Positions 8,221 through 41,484 of a stretch of DNA of 64,000 nucleotides are shown piece by piece; within the stretch, counting starts at the first letter, position 1, and every line of letters starts with the position of its first letter. This DNA is from Pseudomonas cavernicola (GTDB lineage: Bacteria; Pseudomonadota; Gammaproteobacteria; Pseudomonadales; Pseudomonadaceae): assembly GCF_003596405.1 (NCBI RefSeq), contig NZ_QYUR01000002.1, forward strand, positions 1,752,501-1,816,500, read 5' to 3'. The position numbers and the translations under genes are program-made. Below the pieces are notes generated by a model. It did no database searches, was not told where the DNA came from, and saw nothing but the letters and a program-made list of their open reading frames with translations.

Positions 8221-9546
8221 TTACTCGGGCGAGTGGAAACTCAGGCTGTAATTCACGGCCTTGGTGCCTGGGTCGAGGATGTCGAGGGAAATGTGGATCG
8301 GCGTTTGCGGTGGCATTTCGGCCTGACCGGCAAGCTCACCCGCCAGATATTCGCTGGGCTTGAAACGACGACTGGCAAGTAATTGGCCGTTGATATCGGC
8401 GAAGCGTATTTCCAGCAAGGGGAAGGGTTGGGCGAAAGATGCGCGGTTGTAGAGAATCGCGTCTACCACCAGGGCGCCAGTGAACTCCGGGTGGCTGCGC
8501 ACCACCAGGTTGCTGCTCTTGATCAGGCTGATCTCGACCTTGGACGGCAGGCTGCAGCCGAGGCTTGGGCAGAACTGCTCGAACCAGGGGCGGTACTGAT
8601 CCTGACGCGCCAGTTCGTCGAAATGGTAGGCGATATATTGGCTGGCCAGGGCGACCGCGCCGATCAGGTTCAGCAGACCCCAGCCCAGCCAGCGGCCCCA
8701 GGGTTTGCGCCGTTCTTGCCAGTCGAGTTGCAGGGGCTCTTCAGCCAGATTGAATAGCCCGTCGTCACGCAGCCCAGGTTCGCTGCGTCCGGGGTTTTGC
8801 AAGGTTCTGACGGAGGCAAAGCTGTTGTCCTGATCGTCATGGTCGTCAGTGGCGGACAAGCTGACATCCGGCTTGTCGCGCTCGGCGCTGAGCTTGAAGT
8901 CGTGCTCCAGTTCCTCATCATCGCCCTCATTCGTGGCGTCTGCGTTGTCGCGGGCCAGTGCTGGCTCATCGCTCACCAGGCTGGAAGGTGGTACTTCGGC
9001 TGGCGGCGCGGCCACGGGCGGCGGCGCTACTGTCGATGCAAGAGGTGCGGTGGGGGCAGCACTAACCCTGGCCGGGCGTGACGCGGGCTCGTCCTTGAGG
9101 AGTGCCTCGGTCCAACTTTCGTCGTGCTGCTCGCGCGCTTTTTCCGGCGCTTTGAGGAGGTTCTCGGCCGATTTCGGGTTGGGCTCCAGGGCGAGAAACT
9201 CTTGCGAGAGTTGCAGTTCCTGCTGCTCAAGCTTGGCCAGCTCTTCATCGAGGCTGTCGAGGTCGAGGTCGTCATGAATCCACAGCGTGTCGCTGGCAGC
9301 TTTGCCGGGCGGCGTGGCGGGTTGGCTGGCAGGGGTTGCCGGGCGGGGCGGCTGCGCGGTGGTCGGCGGCGGGCTAGCGGCTGCTTTAGCGACGGCCGGT
9401 TGTGCGCCGAGAAGCTGTTGCGCGGCATTGAATACATGTAAGCAGGCTCCGCAACGCACTGCGCCATGGGCTGCGCCCAGCTGTGCGCGGCTCACGCGGA
9501 AGCTGGTGCGGCAATGGGGGCATTGGGTGACGAAGCTGGCGGTCAT
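8221..9546 (-). CDS. Zinc-ribbon (MJ0042) and DUF3426 membrane protein
   Basis: A 441-residue protein of unknown function, conserved beside prmA in pseudomonads. The N-terminus has an MJ0042-type zinc ribbon: CPHC near residue 9 and CGAC near residue 32. A long low-complexity linker rich in Ala, Pro, Glu and Asp follows (about 45-270). One membrane helix is seen near residue 290 (WLGWGLLNLIGAVALASQYI), then a C-terminal DUF3426 domain of beta-rich character, probably periplasmic. The layout resembles a single-pass anchor with a cytoplasmic metal-binding head, but no biochemical role can be read from it. Confidence 0.85.
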   Translation of the reverse strand: MTASFVTQCPHCRTSFRVSRAQLGAAHGAVRCGACLHVFNAAQQLLGAQPAVAKAAASPPPTTAQPPRPATPASQPATPPGKAASDTLWIHDDLDLDSLDEELAKLEQQELQLSQEFLALEPNPKSAENLLKAPEKAREQHDESWTEALLKDEPASRPARVSAAPTAPLASTVAPPPVAAPPAEVPPSSLVSDEPALARDNADATNEGDDEELEHDFKLSAERDKPDVSLSATDDHDDQDNSFASVRTLQNPGRSEPGLRDDGLFNLAEEPLQLDWQERRKPWGRWLGWGLLNLIGAVALASQYIAYHFDELARQDQYRPWFEQFCPSLGCSLPSKVEISLIKSSNLVVRSHPEFTGALVVDAILYNRASFAQPFPLLEIRFADINGQLLASRRFKPSEYLAGELAGQAEMPPQTPIHISLDILDPGTKAVNYSLSFHSPE

Positions 9547-25975: not shown

Positions 25976-28900
25976 ATGCCGAAGAAAGGATTGCTTCTGG
26001 CGCTTGTCCTGAGCCTGCTCAGTGCTTGTGATTCCTCCACCCCCGAGCAGCCCGCCGCGACCTCGGCGCCGCCCGAAAGCCAACAGGCTAAGCCAAGGCC
26101 GGAGGTGGATCTACCTACCTTGGCCAAGCGCTACGCCGGTCGCGAGCTAACGGTGGTGGACGTCTCCGAAGTCCAGTTGGACGGCGCCAGCGCGCTGTCG
26201 GTGAGCTTCGGCGTGCCGCTCGATCCCGAGCAGAAGTTCGCCGACAAACTGCACCTGGTCGACAGCAAAAACGGCAAGGTCGACGGCGCCTGGGAGCTTT
26301 CCGACAACCTCATGGAGCTGCGCCTGCGCCATCTGGAACCGAGGCGCAAACTGGTGCTGACGGTGGACGCCGGCCTGCGCGCGGTGAACGATGCCACGCT
26401 GGCCGAGGACTTCATCAGCCAGCTGGAAACCCGCGACCTGGAGGCCAGCATCGGCTTCGCCAGCCGTGGTTCGCTGTTGCCGACCCGCCTGGCCGAAGGC
26501 CTGCCGGTGATCACCCTGAACGTCGACAAGGTCAACGTCGAGTTCTTCCGCATCAAACCGCAAGCCCTGCCGGCCTTTCTCAGCCAGTGGGGGCGCGGCA
26601 CCAGCCTGGGCACCTGGGAGGCTCGCGAGTTATTGCCGATGGCGGATCTGGTCTATGGCGGCCGCTTCGATCTGAACCCCGCGCGCAACACCCGCGAAAC
26701 GCTACTGCTGCCGATTGCCGGGCTGCAGCCGTTCAAGCAACCCGGCGTCTACCTGGCGGTGATGCGCGGCGCCGGCACCTACACCTATTCGCAGCCCGCC
26801 ACGCTGTTCACCCTCAGCGATATCGGCCTGTCGGCGCACCGCTATCAGGATCGTCTGGACGTCTTCACCCAGGCCCTGGAAGGCGGCAAAGCGCTGGACA
26901 GCGTCGAGCTGGAACTGCTCGATGGCTCCGGCCGCGTGCTCGCCACGGGCAAGACCGATGGCGCCGGCCATGCCGAGCTGCCGCTGGCGCCCAAGGCCGA
27001 AGTACTGCTGGCCCGCCAGGGTGAGCAGACCAGCCTGCTCCGGCTAAACGCTGCGGCGCTGGACCTGGCCGAGTTCGATATCGCCGGGCCGCAAGCACAC
27101 CCGCTGCAATTTTTCGTGTTCGGCCCGCGGGATCTCTACCGCCCCGGTGAAACCGTGCTGCTCAATGCCTTGCTCCGAGATGCCGATGGCCGCGCGGTGA
27201 AAACCCAGCCGGTGAGCGTCGAGGTGCGCCGCCCGGACGAACAAGTCAGTCGCAAATTCGTCTGGGAGGCGGACGCTTCCGGCCTCTATCGATACCAGCT
27301 GCAACTCGCTGGTGAAGCACCGACCGGGCGCTGGCAACTGCTGTTCGACCTCGGCGACGGCAAGCCGCAGCTGTATGAATTCCTGGTCGAAGACTTCTTG
27401 CCAGAGCGCCTGGCCCTGGAACTGAAGGGCAGTGATACGCCGTTCGCGCCAGCGGACAACGCCCAGTTCAGCGTTAATGGCCGTTACCTCTACGGCGCGC
27501 CAGCGGCGGGTAATCGCTTGAGCGGGCAACTGTATGTGCGCCCGCTGCGCGAAGCGGTTGCGGCGCTGCCGGGTTACCAGTTCGGTTCGGTGACTGAAGA
27601 GGAGCTGAGCCAGGATATCGAGTTGGACGAAACCGTCCTGGACGCCGATGGCGAAACCACCCTGGATATCCAAAGCAAGTGGGCCGATGCCAAGTCGCCG
27701 CTGAAGTTGATCCTCCAGGCCAGCCTGCAAGAATCCGGTGGGCGGCCGATCACCCGGCGCATCGTTCAGCCGGTCTGGCCGGCCGAACGCCTGCCGGGAC
27801 TGCGGGGGTTGTTCGAGGGTGAAGAGATCGACGCCGATGGGCTGGCCGAATTCGAATTGTTGGTGGCCGACCCGGCCGGTAACAAGCTGGCTGCCGATAG
27901 CCTCAAGGTGCGCTTGATTCGCGAGCGTCGCGACTATTACTGGAACTACTCCGAGAACGACGGCTGGAGCTACCACTACAACGAGAAGTACCTGAACCTC
28001 AGTGAAGAAACACTCAGCGTGCGGGCCGGCGGCACCGCCAAGGTCAGCTTCCCGGTCGAGTGGGGCCCCTATCGCGTCGAGGTGGAAGATCCGCAAACCG
28101 GTATCGTCAGCAGCCTGCGCTTCTGGGCCGGCTACCGCTGGCAAGACAACACCGAAGGCGGCGCGGTGCGCCCCGACCAGGTCAAGCTGGCGCTGGACAA
28201 GCCCGCCTATGTCGACGGCGACACGGCCAAAGTCACGGTCACGCCGCCGTCGGCCGGCAAGGGGTATTTGCTGGTCGAGTCGAGCAATGGGCCGCTCTGG
28301 TGGCAGGAAATCGAAGTGCCGGCCGAAGGTAAAAGCTTCGACATCCCCATCGCCAAAGACTGGGCGCGGCATGATCTGTATGTCAGCGCCCTGATCATTC
28401 GCCCCGGCGAGCGCAAAGCCAATGTCACACCCAAACGTGCGGTCGGCCTGCTGCATCTACCGCTGGAGCGTGCACCGCGCAAGCTGGCGCTGACGTTGAC
28501 GGCGCCGGAGAAAATGCGGCCCAAGCAGCCGTTGACGGTCAAAGTGCAGGCGAAGAATGCCGATGGCAGCGTGCCGAAACAGGTGCAAGTGCTGGTCGCG
28601 GCGGTGGATGTCGGCATCCTCAACATCACCGAATACCCGACACCGGACCCGTACTCCAGCTTGTTCGGGCGCAAGGCTTACGGCGTTGACCAGCTGGATA
28701 TCTATGGTCAGCTGATCGAGGCCGGCCAGGGCCGTTTGGCCAGCCTGGCCTTCGGCGGTGACGCGGCATTGGCCAAGGGCGGCAAACGCCCGGACACCAG
28801 CATCACCATCGTCGCCTTGCAAAGCCAGCCGCTGAACTTGAACGAACAGGGCGAAGGTGAAGTCAGCCTGGATATCCCCGAGTTCAACGGCGAGCTGCGG

Positions 28901-30883
28901 CTAATGGCGCAAGCCTGGACGGATGAACGCTACGGCATGGCCGAGGGCAAAACGGTGGTGGCGGCGCCGCTGATCGCCGAGCTGTCGGCGCCGCGCTTCC
29001 TCGCCGGTGGCGATGAAACCACGCTGGCACTGGACCTGAGCAACCTCACCGATAAAACCCAGCAACTGGACGTGCAACTGAGCGCCGCAGGTCAACTGGA
29101 CTTGGCGCAAAGCGCCGGCGGGCAAGTGGCGCCTGTGCAATTGGGCAAAGGCCAACGCATCACCCTACGCATTCCGGTGCGGGCCCTGGGTGGTTACGGA
29201 CAGGGTCGTTTCAAGGTAACGGTGCAGGGTTTGGACCTACCGGGTGAAAACCTGCCGCCGTTTACCCGCGAGTGGACGCTGGGCATTCGTCCGGCTTACC
29301 CGGCGTTGCTCAAACACTTCCGTGCGGTGCTCAAAGGCGAAACCTGGAGCCTGCCGGACGGTGCGCTCGATGCCTACGAGCCGGCCAGTCGTGAGGGGCT
29401 GTTGGCGCTCTCGAGTCGCCCGCCGCTGAACCTCGGCGAGCAGATTCGCGCGCTCAAGGCCTATCCCTATGGTTGCCTGGAACAAACTACCAGTGGCCTG
29501 TACCCGTCGTTGTACGCCGACGCCGCCAGCCTCAAACGCCTCGGCCTGATTGGCGAGCCGGATGAACAGCGGCGCAAATCGATCGAACTGGGCATCGAAC
29601 GCCTGCTCGGGATGCAGCGCTATAACGGCAGCTTCGGTCTGTGGGGGGCCGACGGCGATGAGGAATATTGGCTGACCGCTTACGTCACCGACTTCCTCCT
29701 GCGGGCCCGCGAGCAAGGTTTCGCCGTGCCGCCAGAGGCGCTGAAAAAGGCCAGCGAGCGGCTGTTGCGTTACTTGCAGGAGCGTAGCCTGATCGAGGTC
29801 AGCTATAGCGAAAACGCCGATCACACCCGCTTCGCCGTGCAAGCTTACGCCGGTTATGTGCTGGCGCGCAGCCAACAGGCGCCGCTGGGGGCTTTGCGCA
29901 CGCTGTTTGAACGACGCGCCGACGCCTTGTCCGGCCTGCCGTTGGTACAGCTGGCGGTAGCCCTCAAGCAGATGGGCGACCAGCCGCGCGCCGACGACGC
30001 CCTGGCGGCGGGCTTGATGCGTGCGCGGAAAGCCGATGACTGGCTGGCGGACTACGGCAGCCCGCTGCGTGATCAGGCGCTGATCCTGGCCCTGCTGGAG
30101 GAGAACGACCTGGCGGCGAACAGCCGCGAGGAAAGGCTGTTCGCCCTAGCGGATGAGCTGGCGGCAAATCAGTACCTCTCGACCCAGGAACGCAACTCGC
30201 TCTACCTGGCGGGCCGCGGCTTGCTGAGCAAGCCTGAACGCGACTGGACGGCAGAGTTGAGCACGGCTGGGGTGGTGCGCGAGTTGAGCACCGCCCAACC
30301 GGCGCTGAAGCTGGAGGGTGCGGGGCTGGCCGCGCCGCTGACGTTGCGCAACGGTGGCAGCGAGCCGCTCTACCAGCGACTTACACTCTCCGGTTATCCG
30401 TTGGCCGCACCGGCTGCCGGTGGCGAGAATCTCAGCATCCGCCGCGAGTACTTAGGCATGGATGGCGAGCCGCTGGATCTGGCGGCGCTGGAGAGTGGCG
30501 AACTGGTGTTGGTGCATCTCGCCGTGGAAGCCAAGCAGCGCGTGCCGGATGCCCTGGTGGTAGACCTGCTGCCAGCCGGCCTGGAGCTGGAAAACCAGAA
30601 CCTTGCCCAGAGCGCCGCCAGCCTGGCCGACGCCAGCAGTGCGGTGAAGGAATGGCAGCAGTCCATGCAGAACGCCAACCTGAAACACCAGGAGTTCCGT
30701 GACGACCGTTATGTCGCCGCGCTGGATGTGGGCGAATATGGCACTACCCACCTGCTCTACCTGGCCCGCGCCGTGACCCCCGGCCGCTACCGCGTGCCGC
30801 CGCCGCAAGTGGAGTCGATGTACCGTCCGAACTGGCAGGCACTCGGTGAAACCCCGGCAACTCTGGTGATAAAGGGCCGATAA
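25976..30883 (+). CDS. yfhM: Bacterial alpha-2-macroglobulin lipoprotein (YfhM-like)
   Basis: Very large periplasmic protease trap, 1635 residues, close to E. coli YfhM (about 1650). The signal peptide ends in lipobox LLSAC, Cys about residue 19, so it is a lipoprotein. MG-type beta domains fill the N-terminal two thirds. The reactive thioester motif is intact as CLEQ with Cys about residue 1167 (YGCLEQTTSG), followed by the alpha-alpha toroid thioester domain and a C-terminal receptor-binding-like region. In the family, cleavage of the bait region exposes the thioester and traps the attacking protease. pbpC lies downstream, the usual partner: the pair is thought to defend and repair the cell wall. 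Confidence 0.95.
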   Translation: MPKKGLLLALVLSLLSACDSSTPEQPAATSAPPESQQAKPRPEVDLPTLAKRYAGRELTVVDVSEVQLDGASALSVSFGVPLDPEQKFADKLHLVDSKNGKVDGAWELSDNLMELRLRHLEPRRKLVLTVDAGLRAVNDATLAEDFISQLETRDLEASIGFASRGSLLPTRLAEGLPVITLNVDKVNVEFFRIKPQALPAFLSQWGRGTSLGTWEARELLPMADLVYGGRFDLNPARNTRETLLLPIAGLQPFKQPGVYLAVMRGAGTYTYSQPATLFTLSDIGLSAHRYQDRLDVFTQALEGGKALDSVELELLDGSGRVLATGKTDGAGHAELPLAPKAEVLLARQGEQTSLLRLNAAALDLAEFDIAGPQAHPLQFFVFGPRDLYRPGETVLLNALLRDADGRAVKTQPVSVEVRRPDEQVSRKFVWEADASGLYRYQLQLAGEAPTGRWQLLFDLGDGKPQLYEFLVEDFLPERLALELKGSDTPFAPADNAQFSVNGRYLYGAPAAGNRLSGQLYVRPLREAVAALPGYQFGSVTEEELSQDIELDETVLDADGETTLDIQSKWADAKSPLKLILQASLQESGGRPITRRIVQPVWPAERLPGLRGLFEGEEIDADGLAEFELLVADPAGNKLAADSLKVRLIRERRDYYWNYSENDGWSYHYNEKYLNLSEETLSVRAGGTAKVSFPVEWGPYRVEVEDPQTGIVSSLRFWAGYRWQDNTEGGAVRPDQVKLALDKPAYVDGDTAKVTVTPPSAGKGYLLVESSNGPLWWQEIEVPAEGKSFDIPIAKDWARHDLYVSALIIRPGERKANVTPKRAVGLLHLPLERAPRKLALTLTAPEKMRPKQPLTVKVQAKNADGSVPKQVQVLVAAVDVGILNITEYPTPDPYSSLFGRKAYGVDQLDIYGQLIEAGQGRLASLAFGGDAALAKGGKRPDTSITIVALQSQPLNLNEQGEGEVSLDIPEFNGELRLMAQAWTDERYGMAEGKTVVAAPLIAELSAPRFLAGGDETTLALDLSNLTDKTQQLDVQLSAAGQLDLAQSAGGQVAPVQLGKGQRITLRIPVRALGGYGQGRFKVTVQGLDLPGENLPPFTREWTLGIRPAYPALLKHFRAVLKGETWSLPDGALDAYEPASREGLLALSSRPPLNLGEQIRALKAYPYGCLEQTTSGLYPSLYADAASLKRLGLIGEPDEQRRKSIELGIERLLGMQRYNGSFGLWGADGDEEYWLTAYVTDFLLRAREQGFAVPPEALKKASERLLRYLQERSLIEVSYSENADHTRFAVQAYAGYVLARSQQAPLGALRTLFERRADALSGLPLVQLAVALKQMGDQPRADDALAAGLMRARKADDWLADYGSPLRDQALILALLEENDLAANSREERLFALADELAANQYLSTQERNSLYLAGRGLLSKPERDWTAELSTAGVVRELSTAQPALKLEGAGLAAPLTLRNGGSEPLYQRLTLSGYPLAAPAAGGENLSIRREYLGMDGEPLDLAALESGELVLVHLAVEAKQRVPDALVVDLLPAGLELENQNLAQSAASLADASSAVKEWQQSMQNANLKHQEFRDDRYVAALDVGEYGTTHLLYLARAVTPGRYRVPPPQVESMYRPNWQALGETPATLVIKGR

Positions 30884-30898
30884 GCCTGGTTGATTATT

Positions 30899-31140
30899 GA
30901 TGGTTCCCACGCTCCCGCGTGGGAACCCCGCCTCGGACGCTCTGCGTCCGCTGTTGGCAGACGCGGAGCGTCTTGGGCTGCATTCCCACGCGGAGCGTGG
31001 GAACGATCAAAGGACAGTCAGCTAATTGATGGTTCCCACGCTCCCGCGTGGGAACCCCGCCTCGGACGCTCTGCGTCCGCTGTTGGCAGATGCGGAGCGT
31101 CTTGGGCTGCATTCCCACGCGGAGCGTGGGAACGATCCAA
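30899..31140. repeat. Tandem pair of a 129-base palindromic repeat
   Basis: Two copies start at 30899 and 31028. Each contains GGTTCCCACGCTCCCGCGTG with the following GGAACC, then GGACGCTCTGCGTCC, GGAGCGTCTTGGGC and CCCACGCGGAGCGTGGGAAC, so each is a chain of nested hairpins. They differ at only a few positions, pointing to a recent duplication. The second copy reaches almost to the stop of the small membrane protein gene at 31147 on the other strand, so it may act as its 3' hairpin. Confidence 0.9.
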
Positions 31141-31146
31141 GGGCGA

Positions 31147-31440
31147 TCAGCTGATGATCAAGCTCAGCAACCACAGCCCGAGCAGCAACATAAGCGTGCC
31201 CACGAGGAACGAGCGGCGGATGAAGGCGCGCCCGGCGTTGAACACCAGGAGGAGTCCGAGCACCAACGCGACAATGCTGAGCAGCGATGGTGTGATGCCC
31301 AGTGCGCGCGATAGGCCATTGATAAACTGGCTGCCGGCGTTGCCAATCAGGTGCAGAAAGCCACTCAGTCCTTCGACGATAAAACGGATCACGGCGCCAA
31401 GTGCTTGGCCGAGCCAATCGAAAAAGCCTTCTACCTGCAT
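31147..31440 (-). CDS. Small two-helix inner membrane protein, unknown function
   Basis: 97 residues: amphipathic N-terminal half (FFDWLGQALGAVIRFIVEGL) and two strongly hydrophobic helices (SLLSIVALVLGLLLVFNAGR, then FLVGTLMLLLGLWLLSLIIS) separated by a short basic loop. Codon use matches the neighbours. It lies between the alpha-2-macroglobulin gene and pbpC on the opposite strand, convergent with the former. I do not recognise a named family and infer no function. Confidence 0.65.
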   Translation of the reverse strand: MQVEGFFDWLGQALGAVIRFIVEGLSGFLHLIGNAGSQFINGLSRALGITPSLLSIVALVLGLLLVFNAGRAFIRRSFLVGTLMLLLGLWLLSLIIS

Positions 31441-31949
31441 GCTGAATTCCTGGGTGGTGAGTGTTGTGGGCGTGCTGCGGATCGGTGCCGGCGCTGCAGT
31501 TTAGGCAGGGCTCTGGTGTCATAAATTCTGCCGCCCGTGGCGCTGCTCGAAGGCATTGCGCGCTAGCCGATCAGGCGGACGGAGCTCGCGACGCCGTAAG
31601 GTAACCGAACAGTGTGCGGCGCACTCGTTGTTCCAGGTGCGTGGCAGCGTTTTCCTCACGCTCGCCTGCCGCAGCGACCAGACCTTTGCTCATGACCAGC
31701 AGGTCGCCGGCGATGCCGCCCTAGGCGGCCAAGGCACCGTGCATCTGTGCATCTGTGCATCGGCGCGGTCGCGCAGGGCGACCCGTTCAAGTCGAATCGG
31801 GTCGGCGCCGCGCGCGTTACGGGTGCCAATGGGCAGGCGGCCTTCTGCAACATCCAGCCCCCGCGCCAGGGCCGGGCGGCGCATTGGGTGTTCGGCCGCG
31901 GCGCGCTCCCTTATGCTGTCCGCCGTGCTCCGTCGGACAGCAACCTTTG
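31441..31949 (-). pseudogene. Non-coding stretch with apparent remnants of a reverse-strand gene
   Basis: About 500 bases without an intact gene. On the reverse strand, 31707 down to about 31570 reads GDLLVMSKGLVAAAGERE and then ATHLEQRVRRTLFGYLTASR before a stop, which looks like a real protein end. It is cut off by an in-frame stop just upstream. Another frame, about 31750-31884, gives LDVAEGRLPIGTRNARGADP, also protein-like. A short CATCTGTG tandem repeat lies near 31742-31760. This fits a frameshifted, decayed gene, but I cannot name the family. The pbpC promoter probably lies in the last 100 bases. Confidence 0.3.
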
Positions 31950-34328
31950 ATGCCGGTTATCCCGCCTTTTCTCCACGTTTTCCATGCACGCTTGGCCAGG
32001 CTTTGGTCCTGGCTGCGGCGGCCCTGGATTGCTACGCCTTTGCTTCTGGTGGTGCTGCTTTGGTCGGCAGATAGGCTGTTCCCGCTGCAGTTGCCCGGCG
32101 ATGACCTGGCCCGTGTGGTGTTGGCCGAAGACGGCACGCCCCTCTGGCGTTTTGCCGATGCCGAGGGTGTTTGGCGTTACCCGATCACACCCGAGGAAGT
32201 TTCGCCTTATTACCTGGAGGCGCTGCTGACCTACGAGGACCGCTGGTTCTATCAGCACCCGGGGGTTAATCCGCTGGCGTTGTTGCGTGCGGCTTGGCAG
32301 AACCTCAGCGGTGGGCGCGTGTTGTCGGGCGGCAGTACGTTGTCGATGCAGGTCGCGCGGCTGCTCGATCCGCATTCGCGAACCTTTGCCGGCAAACTGC
32401 GTCAGCTGTGGCGCACCGCGCAGTTGGAATGGCACCTGTCGAAAACGCAAATCCTCACCCTCTACCTCAATCGCGCGCCCTTCGGTGGCACGCTTCAAGG
32501 TGTTGCGGCAGCCAGTTGGGCTTACCTCGGCAAGCCGCCGTCGCAGCTGAGCCGTGGTGAAGCGGCCTTGCTCGCGGTGTTGCCACAGGCGCCCAGCCGC
32601 CTGCGCCCGGATCGGCACCCCGAGCGTGCGCAGGCGGCGCGCGATAAAGTGCTCAAGCGTGTCGCCGAGTTCGAGGTGTGGCCAAAGCTGGCGGTCAGGG
32701 AGGCCCTGGAAGAGCCGGTGCTGCTGGCTCCTCGCCAGGAACCACGCCTGGCGCCGTTGCTGGCGCGGCGGCTGAATAAAGCGGATAGCCCACCCTTGAT
32801 TCGCACCACCCTCGATGCCGCCTTGCAGCGGCGCTTGGAAGATTTGTTGCTTGGCTGGCGCGCGCGCCTGCCGGAGCACACCTCGGCGGCGATTCTGGTG
32901 GTCGAGCACGAGAGCATGGCGGTGCGCGCCTATTTGGGGTCGGTGGATATCGGCGATCAGCGCCGCTTCGGTCATGTCGATATGGTCAGCGCCCAACGCT
33001 CGCCCGGTTCGACGCTGAAACCCTTTCTCTACGGCATGGCCCTGGACGCCGGGTTGATCCACTCCGAATCGCTGTTACAGGACGTACCGCGGCGTTACGG
33101 CGACTACCGCCCTGGCAACTTCTCCAGCGGCTTTACCGGCGCGGTGTCGGCCAGCGAGGCGTTGGCCACTTCGCTCAACTTGCCAGCAGTACAGTTGCTC
33201 GAAGCCTACGGGCCGAAGCGCTTTGCCGGCGAATTGCGCGGCGCCGGCGTGCCTCTGGCGCTGCCGCCGTTGGCCGAGCCGAATCTGGCGTTGATCCTGG
33301 GGGGCGCCGGTAGTCGTCTGGATGAGTTGGTCACGGGCTACAGCGCCTTCGCCCGCGCCGGCAAAACCGCGCGGCTGCGCTTTCAACCCGAGGACGGCTT
33401 GAGCGAGCGGCGCCTGCTGTCACCTGGTGCAGCCTGGATCGTCCGACGGATTCTCAGTGGCCAGGCCCGCCCGGATCGCGACCCGCGCGCGCAACTGGTA
33501 CAGCGGCCGGTGCTGGCCTGGAAGACCGGCACCAGTTACGGCTTTCGCGATGCCTGGGCGATTGGCGTCGGTCCGCGCTATTTGATCGGTATCTGGATCG
33601 GTCGTCCGGACGGCACCCCAGTGCCCGGTCAATTCGGCCTGGCCTCGGCAGCTCCATTGCTGCTGCAGGTGCACGATCTACTGGTCAACCGCGACAGCCA
33701 GCGCGGCATCGCGGCGCCCGTGGACGTGGTGCCGCAGAGCATCGGTGTGGCGGCGATCTGTTGGCCACTCGGCCAGCCGCTGCTCAAGGGCGATCCGAAT
33801 TGCCGATGCCAGCGTTTCGCCTGGACGCTCGACGGCACTACGCCGCCGACCTTGCAGGCCGAGGATCAGCCGCTGGGCTTGGGCCTGCTGCAAAAAGTCT
33901 GGCTCAACCCGAAAGGCCTGCGCGTGGACGCCAGTTGCCCCGCTGCCACGCCTCATGAGCTGGCGTTCTGGCCGGCGCCGCTGGAACCCTGGCTGCCGCG
34001 TCGCGAACGGCGTGCCGCTCGTCTGCCGGCGCTGGACCCAAGCTGCCCGGCGCAACTGCCGCCGGCAGTGGCACCGCTGTCCATCGTCGGCGTACGCGAA
34101 GGCGATAGCCTGCGCCGGCCGGCCGCCAGCGCCGAACCTCTGCGGCTGAAACTCACTGCCTTGGGTGGTGGCGGCCACCGCTGGTGGTTCCTGAACGGCG
34201 CACCGCTGGCCGATAGCGCGGCGGAAACTGCAATCAACCAACCCCTCGAGCGCAGCGGCCGTTATCAACTCAGCGTGCTCGACGAGTCCGGGCAAACTGC
34301 ACGGATCGAGTTCAATGTGCTTGACTGA
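31950..34328 (+). CDS. pbpC: Penicillin-binding protein 1C
   Basis: Bifunctional inner-membrane peptidoglycan synthase, 792 residues. The start at 31950 (MPVIPPFLHVFHARLARLWS) is chosen because it precedes one membrane anchor (about 25-45) at the expected distance; the open frame extends to 31755 with low-quality sequence, and the ribosome binding site is weak. GT51 domain: YEDRWFYQHPGVNP and GGSTLSMQVARLLDP. Transpeptidase domain: SxxK as STLK (Ser about 354) and KTGTSYGFRDAW (Lys about 525). A C-terminal BiPBP_C domain ends the protein. Its pairing with the alpha-2-macroglobulin gene matches E. coli yfhM-pbpC. The 3' end of this gene is partly duplicated at 37770-37931. Confidence 0.94.
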   Translation: MPVIPPFLHVFHARLARLWSWLRRPWIATPLLLVVLLWSADRLFPLQLPGDDLARVVLAEDGTPLWRFADAEGVWRYPITPEEVSPYYLEALLTYEDRWFYQHPGVNPLALLRAAWQNLSGGRVLSGGSTLSMQVARLLDPHSRTFAGKLRQLWRTAQLEWHLSKTQILTLYLNRAPFGGTLQGVAAASWAYLGKPPSQLSRGEAALLAVLPQAPSRLRPDRHPERAQAARDKVLKRVAEFEVWPKLAVREALEEPVLLAPRQEPRLAPLLARRLNKADSPPLIRTTLDAALQRRLEDLLLGWRARLPEHTSAAILVVEHESMAVRAYLGSVDIGDQRRFGHVDMVSAQRSPGSTLKPFLYGMALDAGLIHSESLLQDVPRRYGDYRPGNFSSGFTGAVSASEALATSLNLPAVQLLEAYGPKRFAGELRGAGVPLALPPLAEPNLALILGGAGSRLDELVTGYSAFARAGKTARLRFQPEDGLSERRLLSPGAAWIVRRILSGQARPDRDPRAQLVQRPVLAWKTGTSYGFRDAWAIGVGPRYLIGIWIGRPDGTPVPGQFGLASAAPLLLQVHDLLVNRDSQRGIAAPVDVVPQSIGVAAICWPLGQPLLKGDPNCRCQRFAWTLDGTTPPTLQAEDQPLGLGLLQKVWLNPKGLRVDASCPAATPHELAFWPAPLEPWLPRRERRAARLPALDPSCPAQLPPAVAPLSIVGVREGDSLRRPAASAEPLRLKLTALGGGGHRWWFLNGAPLADSAAETAINQPLERSGRYQLSVLDESGQTARIEFNVLD

Positions 34329-34525: not shown

Positions 34526-34624
34526 ATGATTTCTCTGGCGGTAGATAGTGGTGGTACGCATACCCGTCTGTTGTTGGTGGCGCAATTGTGCCGACCGTCA
34601 GCCGCCGCGCGGGGGACCGAGTAA
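34526..34624 (+). pseudogene. N-terminal stub of a BadF/BcrA-type (glucosamine kinase-like) ATPase
   Basis: A 32-codon frame, too short to be a full enzyme, begins MISLAVDSGGTHTRLLLVAQ. The DxGGTxTRLLL pattern is the phosphate-1 loop that opens ASKHA sugar kinases of the BadF/BadG family. AGGGG stands upstream at good spacing, so it still looks translatable. After residue about 20 the family match ends and the frame stops at a TAA directly before the ABC transporter ATG. I read it as a truncated kinase gene that now acts at most as a leader for the next gene. Confidence 0.55.
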
Positions 34625-36391
34625 ATGGCTGGGCCGGCTGAGCTGCGGCAACCGCCGAGGCCGCGCTGGCTGTTCCTGCGACTGGTCGTGCCGTATTGGA
34701 ACTCTGCCGGGAAGTGGAAGGTGCGCGGTTTCATCCTGGCACTGCTGCTGCTCACCCTGGCCCAGGTCAGCCTGGTGATCTGGATGAATTACTGGAGTCG
34801 CGCGCTCTTCGATGCCCTGGAAGATAGGTCGTTAAGCCGCTTTCTGTTGCAGCTCGGCACCTTCGCGGTGATCCTCCTGCTGACCATTGGCGTTACGGCG
34901 CTGCATATGCAGGCCAAGCGCTGGCTACAGCTGGACTGGCGCAGGTGGCTGACGGCAAAGGTCCTCGACCGATGGATGGCGCACGGGCATCACTACCAGT
35001 TGCAGCTGACCGAAGGTGAGCATGACAACCCCGATGGACGTATCGCTGAAGATATCCGCGTCGTCACCGAAAGCGCGATCGCCCTGACTCACTCACTGGT
35101 CTATTCGCTGCTGATTTTCGGTAGTTTTGTCGACATTCTGCTGGCAGTTACCGGCAGTGCCCACTTACCCGGGACCTCCCTGTTGGTGCCGGGTTACATG
35201 GTGATCCTGGCGTTTGCTTACGCCGGCGCCGGCACGTTGTTCGGCATGCTGCTCGGGCGTCCGTTGATCAATGCGACCAACAAGCTACAAACCGCGGAGG
35301 CGAATTTCCGCTTTGGGCTGGCGCATTCACGGGAGTGTTCCGAGTCGATTGCGCTGATGCGTGGCGAAGGGGTCGAGCGGCAGAACTCTACGGCTTATTT
35401 CGCCGAGTTGGGCCGCCGCTGGTATCGCCAGACCCTCGGCTACCTGGGGATTGTGTCGTTTTCTTCGGGCTACGGTGTGCTGTTGCCGGTATTCCCGATC
35501 CTGGTCGTGGCACCCCAGTACATTGCCGGCAGCATGACCCTGGGGGTGTTGATGCAGTCCGCGCAAGCCTTCCAGCAGGTGACCTCGGCACTCTCCTGGC
35601 CGATCGATAACCTCGCCGAGCTGGCACGCTGCCGGGCTTCCGCGGATCGGGTGATGAGCCTCTACAACGACCTGCTGCGACTCGAAGAGCAGGTAGCCAA
35701 GCCGCAAGAGCATCGCATCAACCTGGTGCAGTCGAACCGGGCCGAGCTGGTGCTGCGCGATCTGTGCATCGCCAACCCAGACGGGCAGATTCTGATCGAG
35801 GGTCTCAACACGGTCATCCAGCGTGGCGAGCGGGTGCTGATTGCCGGCGATCCGGCGGTCACCACCAGCCTGTTCAAAGTGCTGGCAGGCTTGTGGCCGT
35901 GGGGGCATGGCAAGGTCTGGCTGCCGGCGGGGCAGGCGATCAGTTTTCTGCCGCAGCGGCCATTTCTGCCGTTCAGCAGCTTGCAGTCGGTGCTGAGTTA
36001 TCCGCTGCCGGCGGATACCTTCGCTGCCAGTGCCATGCAGCAAGCCCTGGAATGCGCTGGGATTGCCTGGCTGGCGTCGCGCCTGGGCGAGGTCGATAAC
36101 TGGGATCGCGTGTTGCCGCTGCGTGTGCAGCAACGCCTCGGCATTGCCCGGCTGTTCCTGCAGCAGCCGGCCTGGGTGTTCATCGAAGAGGCGACCAATG
36201 CCTTTGACCCCAAGGGCGAGGAAAGCATGATGGACATGCTGCACCGCGAACTGCCCAGCGCGACGCTGCTGGCTATCAGTTTTCATACCGGCCTTGAGCC
36301 TTACTACCAGCGCAAACTGCTGCTCAATCGCCTGCCGCAAGAGAAGTTCCTCAGCAGCAGCGCGCCGGTCTACGCGCTAAGAGAAACTTGA
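34625..36391 (+). CDS. SbmA/BacA-like ABC membrane protein with degenerate nucleotide-binding domain
   Basis: 588 residues in the ABC_membrane_2 (SbmA/BacA, YddA, Rv1819c-like) family, which move peptides or lipid-like substrates. N-terminal membrane block of about six helices with family motifs IWMNYWSRALFDALEDRSLS, then YQLQLTEGEHDNPDGRIAED and EANFRFGLAHSRECSESIAL. The C-terminal half has the fold of an ABC ATPase but key motifs are broken: the Walker A position reads AGDPAVTTSLF with the invariant Gly-Lys replaced by Thr-Thr; the signature LSGGEQQR position reads LPLRVQQRLGIAR; Walker B is WVFIEEATNAFD. ATP hydrolysis looks unlikely, so it may work like SbmA, which lacks an ATPase and uses the proton gradient. 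It starts immediately after the kinase stub and converges with the GH5 gene, overlapping it by 15 bases. Confidence 0.88.
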   Translation: MAGPAELRQPPRPRWLFLRLVVPYWNSAGKWKVRGFILALLLLTLAQVSLVIWMNYWSRALFDALEDRSLSRFLLQLGTFAVILLLTIGVTALHMQAKRWLQLDWRRWLTAKVLDRWMAHGHHYQLQLTEGEHDNPDGRIAEDIRVVTESAIALTHSLVYSLLIFGSFVDILLAVTGSAHLPGTSLLVPGYMVILAFAYAGAGTLFGMLLGRPLINATNKLQTAEANFRFGLAHSRECSESIALMRGEGVERQNSTAYFAELGRRWYRQTLGYLGIVSFSSGYGVLLPVFPILVVAPQYIAGSMTLGVLMQSAQAFQQVTSALSWPIDNLAELARCRASADRVMSLYNDLLRLEEQVAKPQEHRINLVQSNRAELVLRDLCIANPDGQILIEGLNTVIQRGERVLIAGDPAVTTSLFKVLAGLWPWGHGKVWLPAGQAISFLPQRPFLPFSSLQSVLSYPLPADTFAASAMQQALECAGIAWLASRLGEVDNWDRVLPLRVQQRLGIARLFLQQPAWVFIEEATNAFDPKGEESMMDMLHRELPSATLLAISFHTGLEPYYQRKLLLNRLPQEKFLSSSAPVYALRET

Positions 36392-37504
36392 GGGCAACCA
36401 GCCGCGCTGGACGCATTCGCGAAAACACCAGGCCGGCGTGGTTTCGGTTTTATAACTCCAGAAGAACCAGCCCAGGTATTTCTCGAAGGTCAGCAACTGG
36501 GCGGCGGCATAGCCACGATACGCGGTGTCTTGCTGGAAGCTGTCCATGCTCTCCAGGGCGTGGTTGAACGGCCCTTCTGCCCAGAGCGAGACCACTTTCA
36601 GGTCGAGGCCCAGGCTCCACTCGGCGCAATACGCCGGTATCCCCAGTTGCTCGATGAGCGCATCGGCTTCGGCTTTCCACTGGCCGCTGGCTTTATGCAG
36701 GTGCGTGTAGATATCGCTGTCAATGTCACCGCGCTCAAAGCACTGGTAGCGATGGATATCAAACACCACGTTGGCGAATTCCGGCGGCTGCATAAAACCC
36801 AGGTACTCCTCGAAGGAGCGGAAGCCGTCATGGAAGACCACGCTGACCCGGTCGGCCTTGCAGTACCGGCGGATGCGCTGGTAGGCGTCGAGGTTGTAGC
36901 TCTTCAGGTACTCGGTCGGCACGTCCCAGCGCGGTTCGTTGAGGACCTCGATGGCATGCAGGCTGGGCTGGCCGTGGTAGCGCTCGGCCAGGCGCTCCAG
37001 CACCTTCAGCGAGTGCTCGCGGTATTGCGCCTGGGTGTGCCATTCGCAGACATCCTTGATTCCGCCGTTATCGAAGCCGTTCTGGCAGCCGGGGGCGGCA
37101 TGCAGATCCAGGACAATCTTCAGCTGGAGTTCTTCCGCCCAGGCGAACGCCCGGTCGAGTACCTCGAGCCCGCCTTCGACAAAGGGGTAGCGGCTCTCGC
37201 CATAGCTGCGGTGATAGGGGTAATCCGGGCCGAATATCCAGTGGCCGACTGGAATGCGCACGGCATTGATGCCGCGCTCGTGCAGCCAGACAAAGTCCTC
37301 GCGGCTGATAAAGCTGTTCCAGTGCTGCTGTAGTTTTGCCGTGGCCTGTGCGCCCATCTCGGCACACCAAGTGGTTTCATCGACGGCCTGCAACCCTTCG
37401 AACAGGCTGGGGGTCATCCATTTCTCCAGAACCAGCCAGCCGCCCAGATTCACCCCACGCAATTTCATGCCGGGGTTGGCGTGGACAGGGATTTTTTGCT
37501 CCAT
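36377..37504 (-). CDS. GH5 exo-beta-1,3-glucanase-like glycoside hydrolase
   Basis: 375 residues without a signal peptide, so probably cytoplasmic. It begins like yeast Exg1-type enzymes: LRGVNLGGWLVLEKWMTPSL, and has HERGINAVRIPVGHWIFGP and VLDLHAAPGCQNGFDNGG. The acid/base Glu is in EVLNEPRWD and the nucleophile Glu in YCAEWSLGLD, so it should be active. GH5 members with this pattern (subfamily 9) are mainly fungal beta-1,3-glucanases. Start at 37504 has GGAGCG upstream. The gene lies in the inserted segment between pbpC and the Mla operon, with the ABC protein. Substrate is inferred, not shown. Confidence 0.88.
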   Translation of the reverse strand: MEQKIPVHANPGMKLRGVNLGGWLVLEKWMTPSLFEGLQAVDETTWCAEMGAQATAKLQQHWNSFISREDFVWLHERGINAVRIPVGHWIFGPDYPYHRSYGESRYPFVEGGLEVLDRAFAWAEELQLKIVLDLHAAPGCQNGFDNGGIKDVCEWHTQAQYREHSLKVLERLAERYHGQPSLHAIEVLNEPRWDVPTEYLKSYNLDAYQRIRRYCKADRVSVVFHDGFRSFEEYLGFMQPPEFANVVFDIHRYQCFERGDIDSDIYTHLHKASGQWKAEADALIEQLGIPAYCAEWSLGLDLKVVSLWAEGPFNHALESMDSFQQDTAYRGYAAAQLLTFEKYLGWFFWSYKTETTPAWCFRECVQRGWLPSSFS

Positions 37505-37945: not shown

Positions 37946-39091
37946 ATGACTACAGTGCCGCAAGCAGGAAGCGCCCGCCTGGAAGCCTCAGCTACCCCGC
38001 CGAGTTTGTTTATCTCCGGGGACTGGACCCTGCCGTATTACACCGACCTTGCCCGCGAAGTCGCCGAAATTCGCTCGGGTCTCGACGCTGGTACTCAGGT
38101 GGTTCTCGATGGCCTCGGTGCGCTGGATACCGCTGGCGCGGCGCTGTTGGCTGAGCTGCTCGGGGCTGAGCGTTTGCAGAGCCTGGCGAGCAGTGCGCCG
38201 GGGCTGGCCGCTGCACGGCGCGCTTTGCTGCATACGGTTGGCAGCGCACTGACGGAATATTGCAAACCGGAAAAGCCCAAACACGGTTCGGTTTTGATCG
38301 AATTGCTGGCCCACATTGGCAGTGCGGTCGAAGCCATCTGGCGGCAGATCATTGCGCTGCTGGCCTTTATCGGCCTGACCTTGGAAACCCTGGCGCTCAG
38401 TCTGTTCCGGCCGCGTAGCTGGCGGGTTACCTCGCTGGTCGCGAACATTGAGCAGACCGGGCTGGATGCCGTGCCCATCGTTGTGCTGCTGACCTTTCTG
38501 GTCGGTGCGGTGGTGGCGTTTCTCGGCGCCACGGTGCTGGCTGAGTTCGGTGCCAGCATTTATACCGTCGATCTGGTGGCCTTCGCCTTTCTCCGTGAAT
38601 TTGGCGTGCTGCTCACGGCGATCCTGATGGCCGGGCGCACCGCCAGCGCCTTTACCGCGCAGATCGGTTCGATGAAGGCCAACGAGGAAATCGACGCGAT
38701 CCGCACTCTGGGCCTTAATCCAATCGAGCTGCTGGTACTGCCGCGGGTGCTGGCGATGCTGGTGACGCTGCCGATCCTGACGTTTCTGGCCATGTTCGCG
38801 GGGATCATCGGTGGCGCCGTGGTTTGCGTTCTGGCGCTGGATATTTCGCCGGCGATGTTCATGTCGATCCTGCAACGCGATATCGATGTCCGGCATTTCA
38901 TCGTCGGCTTGGCCAAGGCGCCGGTATTTGCCTTCCTGATTGCGGTAATCGGTTGCCTGGAGGGCTTCAAAGTCAGTGGCAGCGCTAAATCGGTCGGCGA
39001 CCACACCACCTCCAGCGTGGTGCAGTCGATCTTCGTGGTGATCCTGCTGGACGCCGTCGCTGCGTTGTTCTTCATGGAGATGGGCTGGTGA
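37946..39091 (+). CDS. MlaE-type ABC permease with N-terminal STAS domain
   Basis: 381 residues. An N-terminal STAS-like domain (about 10-95; FISGDWTLPYYTDLAREVAE) precedes the MlaE/YrbE permease domain with about five helices (EQTGLDAVPIVVLLTFLVGA, then GRTASAFTAQIGSMKANEEI). In MCE systems this subunit sits in the inner membrane and passes phospholipids to or from the MCE protein. The fusion of STAS to permease puts on one chain what E. coli splits between MlaB and MlaE. It opens a four-gene operon; the ATPase gene overlaps its stop. Confidence 0.93.
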   Translation: MTTVPQAGSARLEASATPPSLFISGDWTLPYYTDLAREVAEIRSGLDAGTQVVLDGLGALDTAGAALLAELLGAERLQSLASSAPGLAAARRALLHTVGSALTEYCKPEKPKHGSVLIELLAHIGSAVEAIWRQIIALLAFIGLTLETLALSLFRPRSWRVTSLVANIEQTGLDAVPIVVLLTFLVGAVVAFLGATVLAEFGASIYTVDLVAFAFLREFGVLLTAILMAGRTASAFTAQIGSMKANEEIDAIRTLGLNPIELLVLPRVLAMLVTLPILTFLAMFAGIIGGAVVCVLALDISPAMFMSILQRDIDVRHFIVGLAKAPVFAFLIAVIGCLEGFKVSGSAKSVGDHTTSSVVQSIFVVILLDAVAALFFMEMGW

Positions 39092-39894
39092 GCACGAGTC
39101 CCGCAGTTGCCCGCGAGGCGATTATCCAAGTGCGCGACCTGAGCAACCGCTTTGGCGCGCAGGCGGTGCATGAGCACCTCGATCTGGATGTCCAGCGCGG
39201 CGAGATACTCGGCGTGGTCGGTGGCTCGGGTACCGGCAAGTCGGTGCTGCTGCGCACCATCGTCGGTCTGCGGCGCCCGACTTTCGGCAGCGTGCAGGTG
39301 TTCGGTGAGGATTTGTTGAGCCTGTCAATCGGGCGCCGCTCGCAACTGGAGCGCCGCTTCGGCGTGCTGTTCCAGGCCGGCGCGTTGTTTTCCTCGCTGA
39401 CCGTGACGGAGAACATCGCCCTGCCGCTGATCGAGCATGCCGGGCTCAGCCGCGCCGACGCCGAGCACTTGGCCGGGGTGAAGTTGGCGCTGGTCGGTTT
39501 GCCTGCCAGTGCCGCGAATAAATATCCCGACTCGTTGTCCGGTGGCATGGTCAAGCGCGCTGCGCTGGCCCGCGCGTTGGCCCTGGACCCGGAAATTCTG
39601 TTTCTCGATGAGCCGACCGCCGGCCTCGATCCGATCAGCGCGGCGGCTTTCGATCAGTTGCTTTTGACCCTGCGCGATGCACTCGGCCTTACGGTTTTTC
39701 TCGTGACCCACGACCTCGATACGCTCTACACCATTTGCGACCGGGTCGCGGTGCTCTCACAAAAACGCGTGCTGGTAGTCGGTAGCCTTGAGACGGTGGC
39801 GGCCGCTGACGATGCCTGGGTGCACGCCTATTTCCACGGTCCGCGCGGCCGTGCGGCCCAGCAGGCGGGCGAACGTCTGCCGGAGACTCTTTGA
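39088..39894 (+). CDS. MlaF-type ABC ATPase
   Basis: 268 residues. All ATPase motifs are intact: Walker A GGSGTGKSVLLRT, signature LSGGMVKRAALARALALDPE, Walker B ILFLDEPTAGLDP and the switch His in LVTHDLDTLY. It drives the lipid transporter formed with the permease before it. The GTG start overlaps the permease stop (GTGA), so translation is coupled. It ends two bases before the MCE gene's ATG. Confidence 0.95.
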   Translation: MSTSPAVAREAIIQVRDLSNRFGAQAVHEHLDLDVQRGEILGVVGGSGTGKSVLLRTIVGLRRPTFGSVQVFGEDLLSLSIGRRSQLERRFGVLFQAGALFSSLTVTENIALPLIEHAGLSRADAEHLAGVKLALVGLPASAANKYPDSLSGGMVKRAALARALALDPEILFLDEPTAGLDPISAAAFDQLLLTLRDALGLTVFLVTHDLDTLYTICDRVAVLSQKRVLVVGSLETVAAADDAWVHAYFHGPRGRAAQQAGERLPETL

Positions 39895-39895
39895 T

Positions 39896-40834
39896 ATGGA
39901 AACCCGTGCCCATCATGTATTGATCGGCCTGTTCACCGTGCTGGTGGTGGCCGCTGCGTTGTTGTTCGGCTTATGGCTGACCAAGTCCAGCGCGGACAGC
40001 GAGTTCACCCTCTACGACATCGTCTTCAACGAGGCGGTGACTGGTCTGTCGAAAGGCAGTGCGGTGCAGTACAGCGGGATCAAGGTCGGCGATGTCGTCC
40101 AGCTCAAGCTCGACCCGAAGGACCCGCGTAAGGTGCGGGCGCGCGTGCGGCTGGCTGGCGATACGCCGGTCAAGCAGAACACGCGGGCCAAACTGGCGCT
40201 GACCGGCATCACCGGTGGCGCATTTATCCAGCTGCACAGCGGTTCGCCAGATAGCCCAAAGCTGGAGAGCGAAAATGGCGAGGTGGCGGTGATCGTCGCC
40301 GACCCGTCGCCGATCAGCACGCTGCTGGCCAATGGCGAAGACCTGCTGACCAACATCAATAAATTCGTCGATAGCGCTAACCAGATGCTCTCCCCGGAGA
40401 ATGCCGCGCGTATCAGCCGAACCCTGGAGCATCTGGATCTGGCGACCGGGGTGCTCGCCGAGCAGCGCAACGATATTCGCGAGATGGTGCAGCAGTTGGC
40501 CAGCGCCAGTAAACAAGCCAGTCTGACCCTCGAGCAGAGTGCGCAATTGATGCGCACAGCCAATGGCTTGCTGGACAAGCAGGGCAAGGGGGCGTTCGAC
40601 GGCGCGCAGCAGGCGATGGCCGCACTGGAACGGGCCAGCCGCAACATTGCCCACTTGCTGAACGACAACCATGACTCGCTCAACGCGGGTGTTCAGGGCT
40701 TGAGTGAAATCGGCCCGGCGGTCAGTGAGCTGCGGGAAACCCTCAGTGGGCTGCGCTCGATTACGCGTCGGCTCGAAGAAGACCCGGCGAGTTACCTGCT
40801 CGGCGGCGACAAGACCAAGGAGTTTGAGCCATGA
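39896..40834 (+). CDS. MCE-domain (MlaD-like) periplasmic lipid-binding protein
   Basis: 312 residues, start at 39896 (METRAHHVLIGLFTVLVVAA), an N-terminal anchor helix. One MCE domain follows at about 40-118 (GLSKGSAVQYSGIKVGDVVQ; AKLALTGITGGAFIQLHSGS). A long, mostly helical C-terminal tail (about 150-300) is rich in heptad-like patterns, as in tunnel-forming MCE proteins. It should form a hexamer above the permease. The frame is open further upstream inside the ATPase gene, but that start would give a protein without an anchor. Confidence 0.92.
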   Translation: METRAHHVLIGLFTVLVVAAALLFGLWLTKSSADSEFTLYDIVFNEAVTGLSKGSAVQYSGIKVGDVVQLKLDPKDPRKVRARVRLAGDTPVKQNTRAKLALTGITGGAFIQLHSGSPDSPKLESENGEVAVIVADPSPISTLLANGEDLLTNINKFVDSANQMLSPENAARISRTLEHLDLATGVLAEQRNDIREMVQQLASASKQASLTLEQSAQLMRTANGLLDKQGKGAFDGAQQAMAALERASRNIAHLLNDNHDSLNAGVQGLSEIGPAVSELRETLSGLRSITRRLEEDPASYLLGGDKTKEFEP

Positions 40835-41484
40835 GGCCATCCCTGCAGCCGCTTCGTTTGTGCTGCCGTTTGCGTTTGCTCTGCGCGAGTGCGCTGTTGG
40901 GCCTGCTGTCGGGTTGCTCGCTGCTGCCACATGCCGAGCCGAACGATGTGTACCTGTTGCCTGGTAGTGTTAGCCGCCAGACCAACAGCGGCACTGCTGT
41001 CGATTGGTCTTTGCGCGTCGCCAAACCGCAGGCTAACCAGGTGCTGGATAACTCGCGCATCGCGGTGCTACCCGAAGGCAGCCTGATCAGCAGCTACAAG
41101 GGCGCCCGCTGGAGCGATGCCGGCCCGGTGCTGCTGCGCGACCGTCTGATCGAAGCCTTCCAGGCCGATGGCCGGATCACCTCGCTCAGCAGTGACGACA
41201 CGCAACTTCAGGCCGATCTGGAACTGCTCAGCGACCTGCGGGCGTTTCAGAGCGAATACCGCACCGGGCAGCCCGAGGTGGTGATCCGTCTGGATGTGCG
41301 GCTGGTGCAAAGCGCTACCCGCAAGATCGTCGCGATGCAGCGCTTTGAGACGCGTCAGGCGTCCAGCAGCGCGCAAGTCGCGGATGTGGTCACGGCGTTC
41401 GGCCTGGCCAGCAATGCGCTCGCCGGGCAACTGCTGACCTGGACCCTGCAACAAGGGCAGCTGCAGGCCCGGAACCTGCGCTGA
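40831..41484 (+). CDS. ABC-type transport auxiliary lipoprotein (PqiC-like)
   Basis: 217 residues; signal peptide with lipobox LLSGC (Cys about residue 29), so an outer-membrane or periplasmic lipoprotein. The body matches the ABC_trans_aux (DUF330, PqiC/YmbA) family: VYLLPGSVS near the N-terminus, SRIAVLPEGSLISSYKGARW, and VVIRLDVRLVQSATRKIVAM. It overlaps the MCE gene by four bases and closes the operon. It probably gives the outer-membrane end of the lipid transport bridge. Confidence 0.9.
   Translation: MRPSLQPLRLCCRLRLLCASALLGLLSGCSLLPHAEPNDVYLLPGSVSRQTNSGTAVDWSLRVAKPQANQVLDNSRIAVLPEGSLISSYKGARWSDAGPVLLRDRLIEAFQADGRITSLSSDDTQLQADLELLSDLRAFQSEYRTGQPEVVIRLDVRLVQSATRKIVAMQRFETRQASSSAQVADVVTAFGLASNALAGQLLTWTLQQGQLQARNLR

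Follow-up and report, generated by a model that had tools for sequence, protein, structure and literature searches.

A clade of ABC_membrane_2 half-transporters with a degenerate nucleotide-binding domain and a likely loss of ATP use

A half-transporter with altered nucleotide-handling motifs

The stretch of Pseudomonas cavernicola DNA analysed here (the window; 64,000 nucleotides, positions 1,752,501 to 1,816,500 of contig NZ_QYUR01000002.1) encodes, at 34625..36391 on the forward strand, a half-transporter of the ABC_membrane_2/SbmA-like type, P0001, whose nucleotide-binding domain (NBD) is degenerate. The gene is preceded by a remnant of a glucokinase gene and followed by a convergent gene for a glycoside hydrolase of family 5 (GH5). 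Its reading frame runs from an ATG start through 588 codons with no interruption, as expected from the initial annotation, which had described a complete frame of over 580 residues. Compared with Pfam, the product exceeds the cut-offs of ABC_membrane_2 (E 5e-36) and SbmA_BacA (E 3e-18), and reaches 14.5 bits with ABC_tran, which is under the cut-off of 25. The alignment with Rv1819c (6tqe; E 3.5e-51) spans both domains, residues 69-567, with a one-residue gap in Walker A.

The membrane domain occupies about residues 13-358 (34661..35698, +), as delimited by Pfam and AlphaFold2, and structure comparison also places it as ABC_membrane_2. The NBD fold, at about residues 364-567 (35714..36325, +), is complete in the AlphaFold2 model, which has a mean confidence score (pLDDT) of 88; blocks of ten residues in the NBD score 86-96, with one at 76. 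In this monomer model, the first long helix begins at residue 30, with just a short helix (13-25) before it, and two further short helices, 119-128 and 239-244, bear on the question of coupling helices, which the SbmA/BacA (SLiPT) family lacks.

Almost every motif that handles nucleotide in the NBD of P0001 is altered. Walker A, at residues 408-418 (35846..35878, +), reads GDPAVTTSLFK, without the Walker A lysine, and the signature, at residues 497-504 (36113..36136, +), reads LPLRVQQR; the GDPAVTTS and LPLRV readings of the initial annotation are thus both borne out. Beyond that annotation, Walker A is one residue under the canonical length, Walker B is VFIEE (residues 518-522; 36176..36190, +), with Asp replaced by Glu and the next Glu retained, and the switch histidine of the H-loop is replaced by Phe553, with His554 one position on (36281..36286, +). 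Such a displaced His is common in clade members, and the alignment is softest at this motif, which makes the H-loop the softest call. The Q-loop glutamine, Gln444 (35954..35956, +), is retained.

Extent, descent and maintenance of the degenerate clade

An 83-sequence set was aligned to follow these changes, composed of the best 80 of 240 relatives in a genome scan (L034-L113) less the truncated L063, together with P0001, two Azospirillum plasmid copies (L115 and L116) and L120 from genome G216. It was compared with 59 canonical relatives (L002, L006-L033, L118, L119, L121-L148), which are loci returned by the searches and not every match. The Walker A lysine is present in 0/83 clade sequences and in 59/59 canonical relatives. 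The clade further lacks the signature Gly in 72/83 sequences, the signature Ser in 81/83, the Walker B Asp in 80/83 and the H-switch His in 78/83; in 63/83 all five of these residues are missing, the Walker A Lys included, and in 58 of them exactly these five. The Gln on the signature side is kept in 83/83, and the loop motifs of the membrane domain that face the NBD are retained. Among the best 120 of 4047 matches, which include P0001 itself, the Walker A lysine is replaced by Thr, Ala or Ser in all 119 other proteins (62-90% identical).

Lysine-free sequences come from Pseudomonas, Azotobacter, Thauera, Parvibaculum, Magnetospirillum and metagenome-assembled genomes (MAGs) of Desulfobacterota. 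Inspected relatives at least 41% identical to P0001 are degenerate and those at or below 37% are canonical; among the relatives whose motifs were inspected, a canonical Walker A did not turn up in any close homologue. A further sample was taken from 297 genomes of the Rhodospirillales, the order of G216, of which 79 gave matches at E<=1e-90. Inspection of 60 loci from this sample gave 48 degenerate ones and 12 with a GKS/T Walker A; the first 38 degenerate loci are 49-100% identical to L120 and the 12 canonical loci 34-41%. This sample partly overlaps the first set: 14 of the 48 are at least 98% identical to first-set members (13 of the first 38 are 100% identical), and replication was counted on the 34 new sequences below 98%. 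One of the 12 canonical proteins, L203 (34% identical to L120), has an intact Walker A with a departed signature (LTDDERRCL) and an odd H-loop, and may represent a separate decay.

Three Rhodospirillales proteins, L185, L190 and L221, still contain LSAGEQQR or LSVGEQQR although Walker A Lys and Walker B Asp are already missing from them, which suggests that the Walker A and Walker B changes preceded the loss of the signature. Judging from its distribution, the motif loss is clade-wide and old.

The relationships were examined with a maximum likelihood tree of the membrane domain only (331 columns), comprising 47 degenerate and 27 canonical proteins, YddA and SbmA. The degenerate proteins form one side of a branch with support 100/100, amid canonical transporters, and the nearest canonical group (9 rows) attaches to them at 92/84. 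Together with the 83/83 loss of the lysine, this answers in the affirmative whether the degenerate NBD marks a clade. The tree root is unsure because the SbmA and YddA branches are long; SbmA is not a neighbour of the clade. The initial annotation had viewed the protein as a natural intermediate between YddA/Rv1819c and SbmA, an idea that finds no support in a clade nested among canonical proteins in which the counterparts of SbmA residues E203, E269 and E287 are not acidic. From these alignments, the clade is better seen as a departure from ATP parallel to, and separate from, that of SbmA.

The ratio of nonsynonymous to synonymous substitution rates (dN/dS, NG86) is 0.03-0.40 for the NBD and 0.035-0.28 for the membrane domain in 13 close degenerate pairs, and 0.03-0.29 and 0.01-0.11 in five canonical pairs, where the domain borders are approximate for pairs without P0001 and dS is low in some. 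The highest NBD value is that of the pair P0001/L034. Judged by these ratios, all well below 1, the NBD of the clade is under purifying selection and, with the clade-wide conservation, they agree with the earlier opinion that the protein is maintained and rule out a local pseudogene.

Membrane residues and neighbouring genes

Nine residues of the membrane domain distinguish the clade. They are Gln47 in transmembrane helix (TM) 1 (34763..34765; 83/83), His94 and Lys98 (83/83 each) and Arg99 (82/83) in TM2 (34904..34921), His156 in TM3 (35090..35092; 78/83), Gln269 in TM5 (35429..35431; 83/83), Gln314 (81/83) and Gln317 (79/83) in TM6 (35564..35575) and Pro326 at a break of TM6 (35600..35602; 83/83), all on the forward strand. 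The nine recur in the 34 new Rhodospirillales sequences, each in 30-34 of them. Canonical proteins differ at these positions: Q314 occurs in 6/59 and 1/12 of them and Q47 in 1/59, and the other seven residues in 0/59 and 0/12. Among the best 120 of 4047 matches, His156 is replaced by Leu in 13 and Gln317 by His in 10. Taken together, the nine residues would be compatible with a novel cavity, hydrophilic or sugar-binding, and some of them may be proton carriers.

Pro326 adjoins Trp325, which is aligned with the gate residue Tyr368 of SbmA. In the AlphaFold2 monomer prediction of P0001, TM6 is broken at residues 324-329 (helices 306-323, 325-328 and 330-358), whereas in that of the canonical control L002 it is one continuous helix, 308-359. 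SbmA has a ladder of six glutamates, E193, E203, E269, E276, E287 and E378 (PMC13316013), and the equivalents in P0001 are E142, I152, T218, E225, R236 and R335, of which 2/6 are acidic. The E193 equivalent is acidic in 82/83 clade sequences and the E276 equivalent in 83/83. A full ladder of the SbmA type was looked for across the 83 and not found. The idea that two other acidic residues, E149 and D328, were gained together with the NBD loss was dropped, as the sister group already has them.

The convergent neighbour of the transporter gene (36377..37504, -; Pfam Cellulase) overlaps its end by 15 bp and encodes a GH5 enzyme resembling exo-beta-1,3-glucanases, in which no signal peptide was seen. 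Its best PDB match is glucan 1,3-beta-glucosidase A (8z2w, E 1e-61), and exo-beta-1,3-glucanase 1cz1 is also matched. Among 29 full-length GH5 copies, the motif NEP is present in 29 and EWS/T in 28, and a hydrophobic leader was not seen in 27. On the other side, the glucokinase (Glk) remnant (34526..34624, +) consists of 32 in-frame codons, corresponding to codons 1-17 and 311-326 of the gene of a relative, and its stop abuts the transporter ATG; it is possibly kept for translational coupling with the transporter. A full-length Glk occupies the same place in L034 and L206, and the P. cavernicola genome has another glucokinase elsewhere (L183). Elsewhere in this genome, a 517-aa membrane protein with a GH17 domain (L204:5644-7197) is possibly beta-glucan-remodelling and a source of endogenous substrate.

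The neighbourhood was compared over 83 loci, namely the 80 named loci, the two from Azospirillum and the P. cavernicola window. GH5 lies within 3 kb of the transporter at 48/83, a GH1 enzyme at 12/83 and glucokinase at 24/83. Within 1.5 kb, any of GH5, GH1 beta-glucosidase or Glk is found at 70/83 (GH5 47, GH1 11, Glk 25), versus 0/59 canonical loci with equal flank (Fisher p about 1e-27, relatedness ignored). Loci with both Glk and GH5 show the arrangement Glk, transporter, convergent GH5. In addition, the same 4/298 genomes of the genus, P. cavernicola included, carry both transporter and GH5. On this evidence of gene order, the transporter gene is linked to beta-glucan catabolism.

Single loci vary from this arrangement. 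In L060 (Parazoarcus communis), an enzyme of the alpha-amylase family (7825-9261) lies between transporter and GH5. In L104, the gene next after the transporter (L104:9793-11076) encodes a 427-aa protein that matches no Pfam family, and reading frames of 427-428 aa are found in the same place in L105 and L113, with no glycoside hydrolase neighbours. Elsewhere in the window, genes for a bacterial alpha-2-macroglobulin (1635 aa) and then penicillin-binding protein 1C lie at 25976-34328, and between macroglobulin and pbpC there are two tandem 129-nt repeats (30896-31153) that are 95% alike, each containing imperfect inverted repeats of 37 nt, which look similar to repetitive extragenic palindromic (REP) elements. 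At 37946-41484 is an Mla-like lipid transport operon (MlaE, ATPase, MlaD and an ABC_trans_aux lipoprotein), whose MlaE has an N-terminal extension of ~130 residues.

Energy source, direction of transport and alternatives

The explanation favoured here, with a chance falling just short of even, is that P0001 acts as a homodimer that imports beta-gluco-oligosaccharides independently of ATP, its NBD serving as a structural pseudo-NBD, and that it descended from a half-transporter like YddA, BclA or Rv1819c. Within it, the loss of ATP use is likely, the substrate and the energy source are inferred, and a proton drive is possible. Beta-gluco-oligosaccharides, probably beta-1,3-linked and derived from external or recycled periplasmic glucans, would be imported into the cytoplasm, where GH5 or GH1 would free glucose and glucokinase would trap it as glucose 6-phosphate. 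The pseudo-NBD would serve as a dimerising, stabilising scaffold for the coupling loops, and alternating access would take place in the membrane domain, where Pro326 of TM6 would form a hinge, a counterpart of the broken TM6a/b of SbmA. The drive may be a metabolically maintained substrate gradient, ion (proton) symport via non-ladder residues, for which His94 and His156 would be the leading candidates, or both. A more specific proposal, tentative and more readily doubted than accepted, is that the clade took a second, independent route from ATP-driven to secondary transport in ABC_membrane_2, in which the NBD was kept as an ATP-free module, the Walker A Lys was lost before the signature, and His94, Lys98, Arg99, His156, four Gln and Pro326 replaced the glutamate ladder, giving a proton- or gradient-driven importer of beta-glucan oligosaccharides.

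Known systems resemble this arrangement in part. Rv1819c, YddA and BclA are ABC_membrane_2 half-transporters with an NBD and have the same membrane domain type as P0001, but canonical members have intact Walker A (59/59), signature and Walker B, and none of the glycosidase or glucokinase neighbours (0/59). The likeness to SbmA/BacA (SLiPT) consists of an ABC-like membrane domain, which in the clade, too, probably works without ATP, and of a TM6 broken at the gate residue (Tyr368 in SbmA, Trp325-Pro326 in the clade, the latter by prediction). SbmA, which has been proposed to derive from a YddA-like membrane domain parted from its NBD, has no NBD and possesses TM0a/TM0b and the six-glutamate ladder (PMC13316013), whereas P0001 has an NBD fold, no TM0 and 2/6 of the ladder. 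A further parallel is LmrA, for which PMC6155054 describes ion-coupled transport without nucleotide, and 4% ATPase activity upon deletion of the Walker A Lys; LmrA-MD and the Lys-deleted protein indicate that an ABC membrane domain without ATPase is able to act in an ion-coupled manner (PMC6155054). These variants of a multidrug exporter were made by truncation or mutation, and are not a natural clade. No paper on a clade with degenerate NBDs was found by keyword in the open-access literature; the accessible portion of PMC13316013 does not mention a clade with a retained dead NBD, and the main text of PMC12003926, as far as available, contains neither 'Pseudomonas' nor 'degenerate'.

Several observations weigh against an ATP-independent glucan importer. 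The equivalents of SbmA E203, E269 and E287 are acidic in 0/83 sequences and that of E378 is Glu in 17/83; the acids at the E193 and E276 positions are shared with canonical relatives, and E149 and D328 are an ancestral trait, being present in the sister group. Accordingly, no known proton path is complete. The Walker B Glu (74/83) and the Q-loop Gln (72/83) are mostly retained, so that residual nucleotide contact is still possible. Column entropy in the clade is 1.47 bits for the NBD versus 1.13 for the membrane domain, and 1.48 versus 1.56 in canonical proteins, indicating that constraint on the NBD is partly relaxed, since it is less conserved than the membrane domain in the clade, unlike in canonical proteins. 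The Lys-deleted LmrA gave no ethidium efflux in cells and is inhibited by ATP binding (PMC6155054); in the clade, where Walker B and the signature are lost in addition, such inhibition (trapping) by bound ATP may be prevented. The link to glucan enzymes is incomplete as well. At 13/83 loci, GH5, GH1 and Glk are all missing from the 1.5 kb around the transporter, in several cases despite long flanks: in L069, L102, L103 and L107 the contig ends on one side before 1.5 kb is reached, in L060 and L115 an enzyme lies slightly farther away, and others, such as L104, L105, L110 and L113, with 8-kb flanks, have none within 3 kb. In the Rhodospirillales, the link is weaker, with GH1 near 20/48 degenerate loci (13/34 new) and 0/12 canonical ones. 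The import direction is read only from the catabolic neighbours, the type IV fold suiting export equally, and at the A. brasilense locus a glycosyltransferase lies upstream of the transporter.

Among the alternatives, ATP might still be bound but not hydrolysed, its binding serving to gate transport driven by ions or a gradient, in the manner of ATP gating in CFTR. The mostly kept Walker B Glu and Q-loop Gln, the signature-side Gln in every clade sequence and the LSxGEQQR of L185, L190 and L221 would suit this, as would the ATP binding retained by Lys-deleted LmrA (PMC6155054), but the short Walker A loop together with the loss of the Walker B Asp and the signature Ser strikes both halves of the composite site, and gating by ATP is considered unlikely. 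Exporters of cyclic beta-glucan such as CGT, NdvA and ChvA are active ABC exporters. By analogy, the clade could export periplasmic or extracellular beta-glucan, with GH5 for trimming or quality control, and the fold would allow it. Unlike in those systems, no synthase gene lies directly beside the P. cavernicola transporter gene, and none occurs among the annotated recurrent neighbour clusters, only part of which were annotated by Pfam; what recurs next to the transporter is glucokinase and a glycosidase that lacks a signal peptide, and without ATP an exporter would have no obvious energy source, leaving this reading a rather slim chance. An equally slim one is given to a proton-driven, promiscuous importer of peptides or hydrophilic solutes like SbmA/BacA. 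This is the direction taken by the initial annotation, which envisaged uptake of Bac7 or bleomycin, but the ladder is incomplete, the clade is far from SbmA in the tree, and the peptide reading is weakened by the GH5/GH1 glycosidases and glucokinase that recur as neighbours.

ABC exporters that form heterodimers with one degenerate site are common, and P. cavernicola, like genome G798, holds both kinds of protein, its canonical paralogue being 36% identical to P0001; a partner could thus supply a working ATP site. However, querying with a canonical member brought up just the degenerate protein at E<=1e-30 in 20/20 Rhodospirillales genomes, all with a degenerate copy whose motifs were inspected. 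This rules out a canonical partner there, and one NBD without Walker A, signature and H-switch would ruin both composite sites. A heterodimer is therefore very improbable, and both ATP sites of the dimer are expected to be dead. Decay towards loss of the gene is the least credible possibility, hardly worth entertaining: the NBD is somewhat less constrained than the membrane domain, the adjoining glk is already an internally deleted remnant in P. cavernicola, and two of the 48 degenerate Rhodospirillales copies (L154 and L177) contain in-frame stops, but the frame is open, dN/dS stays far lower than 1 in proteobacterial classes and Desulfobacterota MAGs alike, and the Walker A deletion is common to all.

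SbmA is recognised as the bridge that joins ABC with secondary transporters. On the question of how an ABC-type pump can give up ATP, the proteins described here would provide a natural series, from canonical relatives, through Rhodospirillales members in which LSxGEQQR is left, to those of Pseudomonas and Thauera, from which most motifs have disappeared. An NBD sequence is present in every member inspected, and that of P0001 is predicted to fold, raising the questions of what role an NBD unable to use ATP might have and what takes the place of ATP. If the importer of beta-gluco-oligosaccharides proposed here is true, a large family, whose listed members bear the database names 'ABC transporter ATP-binding protein/permease' or 'vitamin B12/bleomycin/antimicrobial peptide transport', would gain a different function, the use of beta-glucan.
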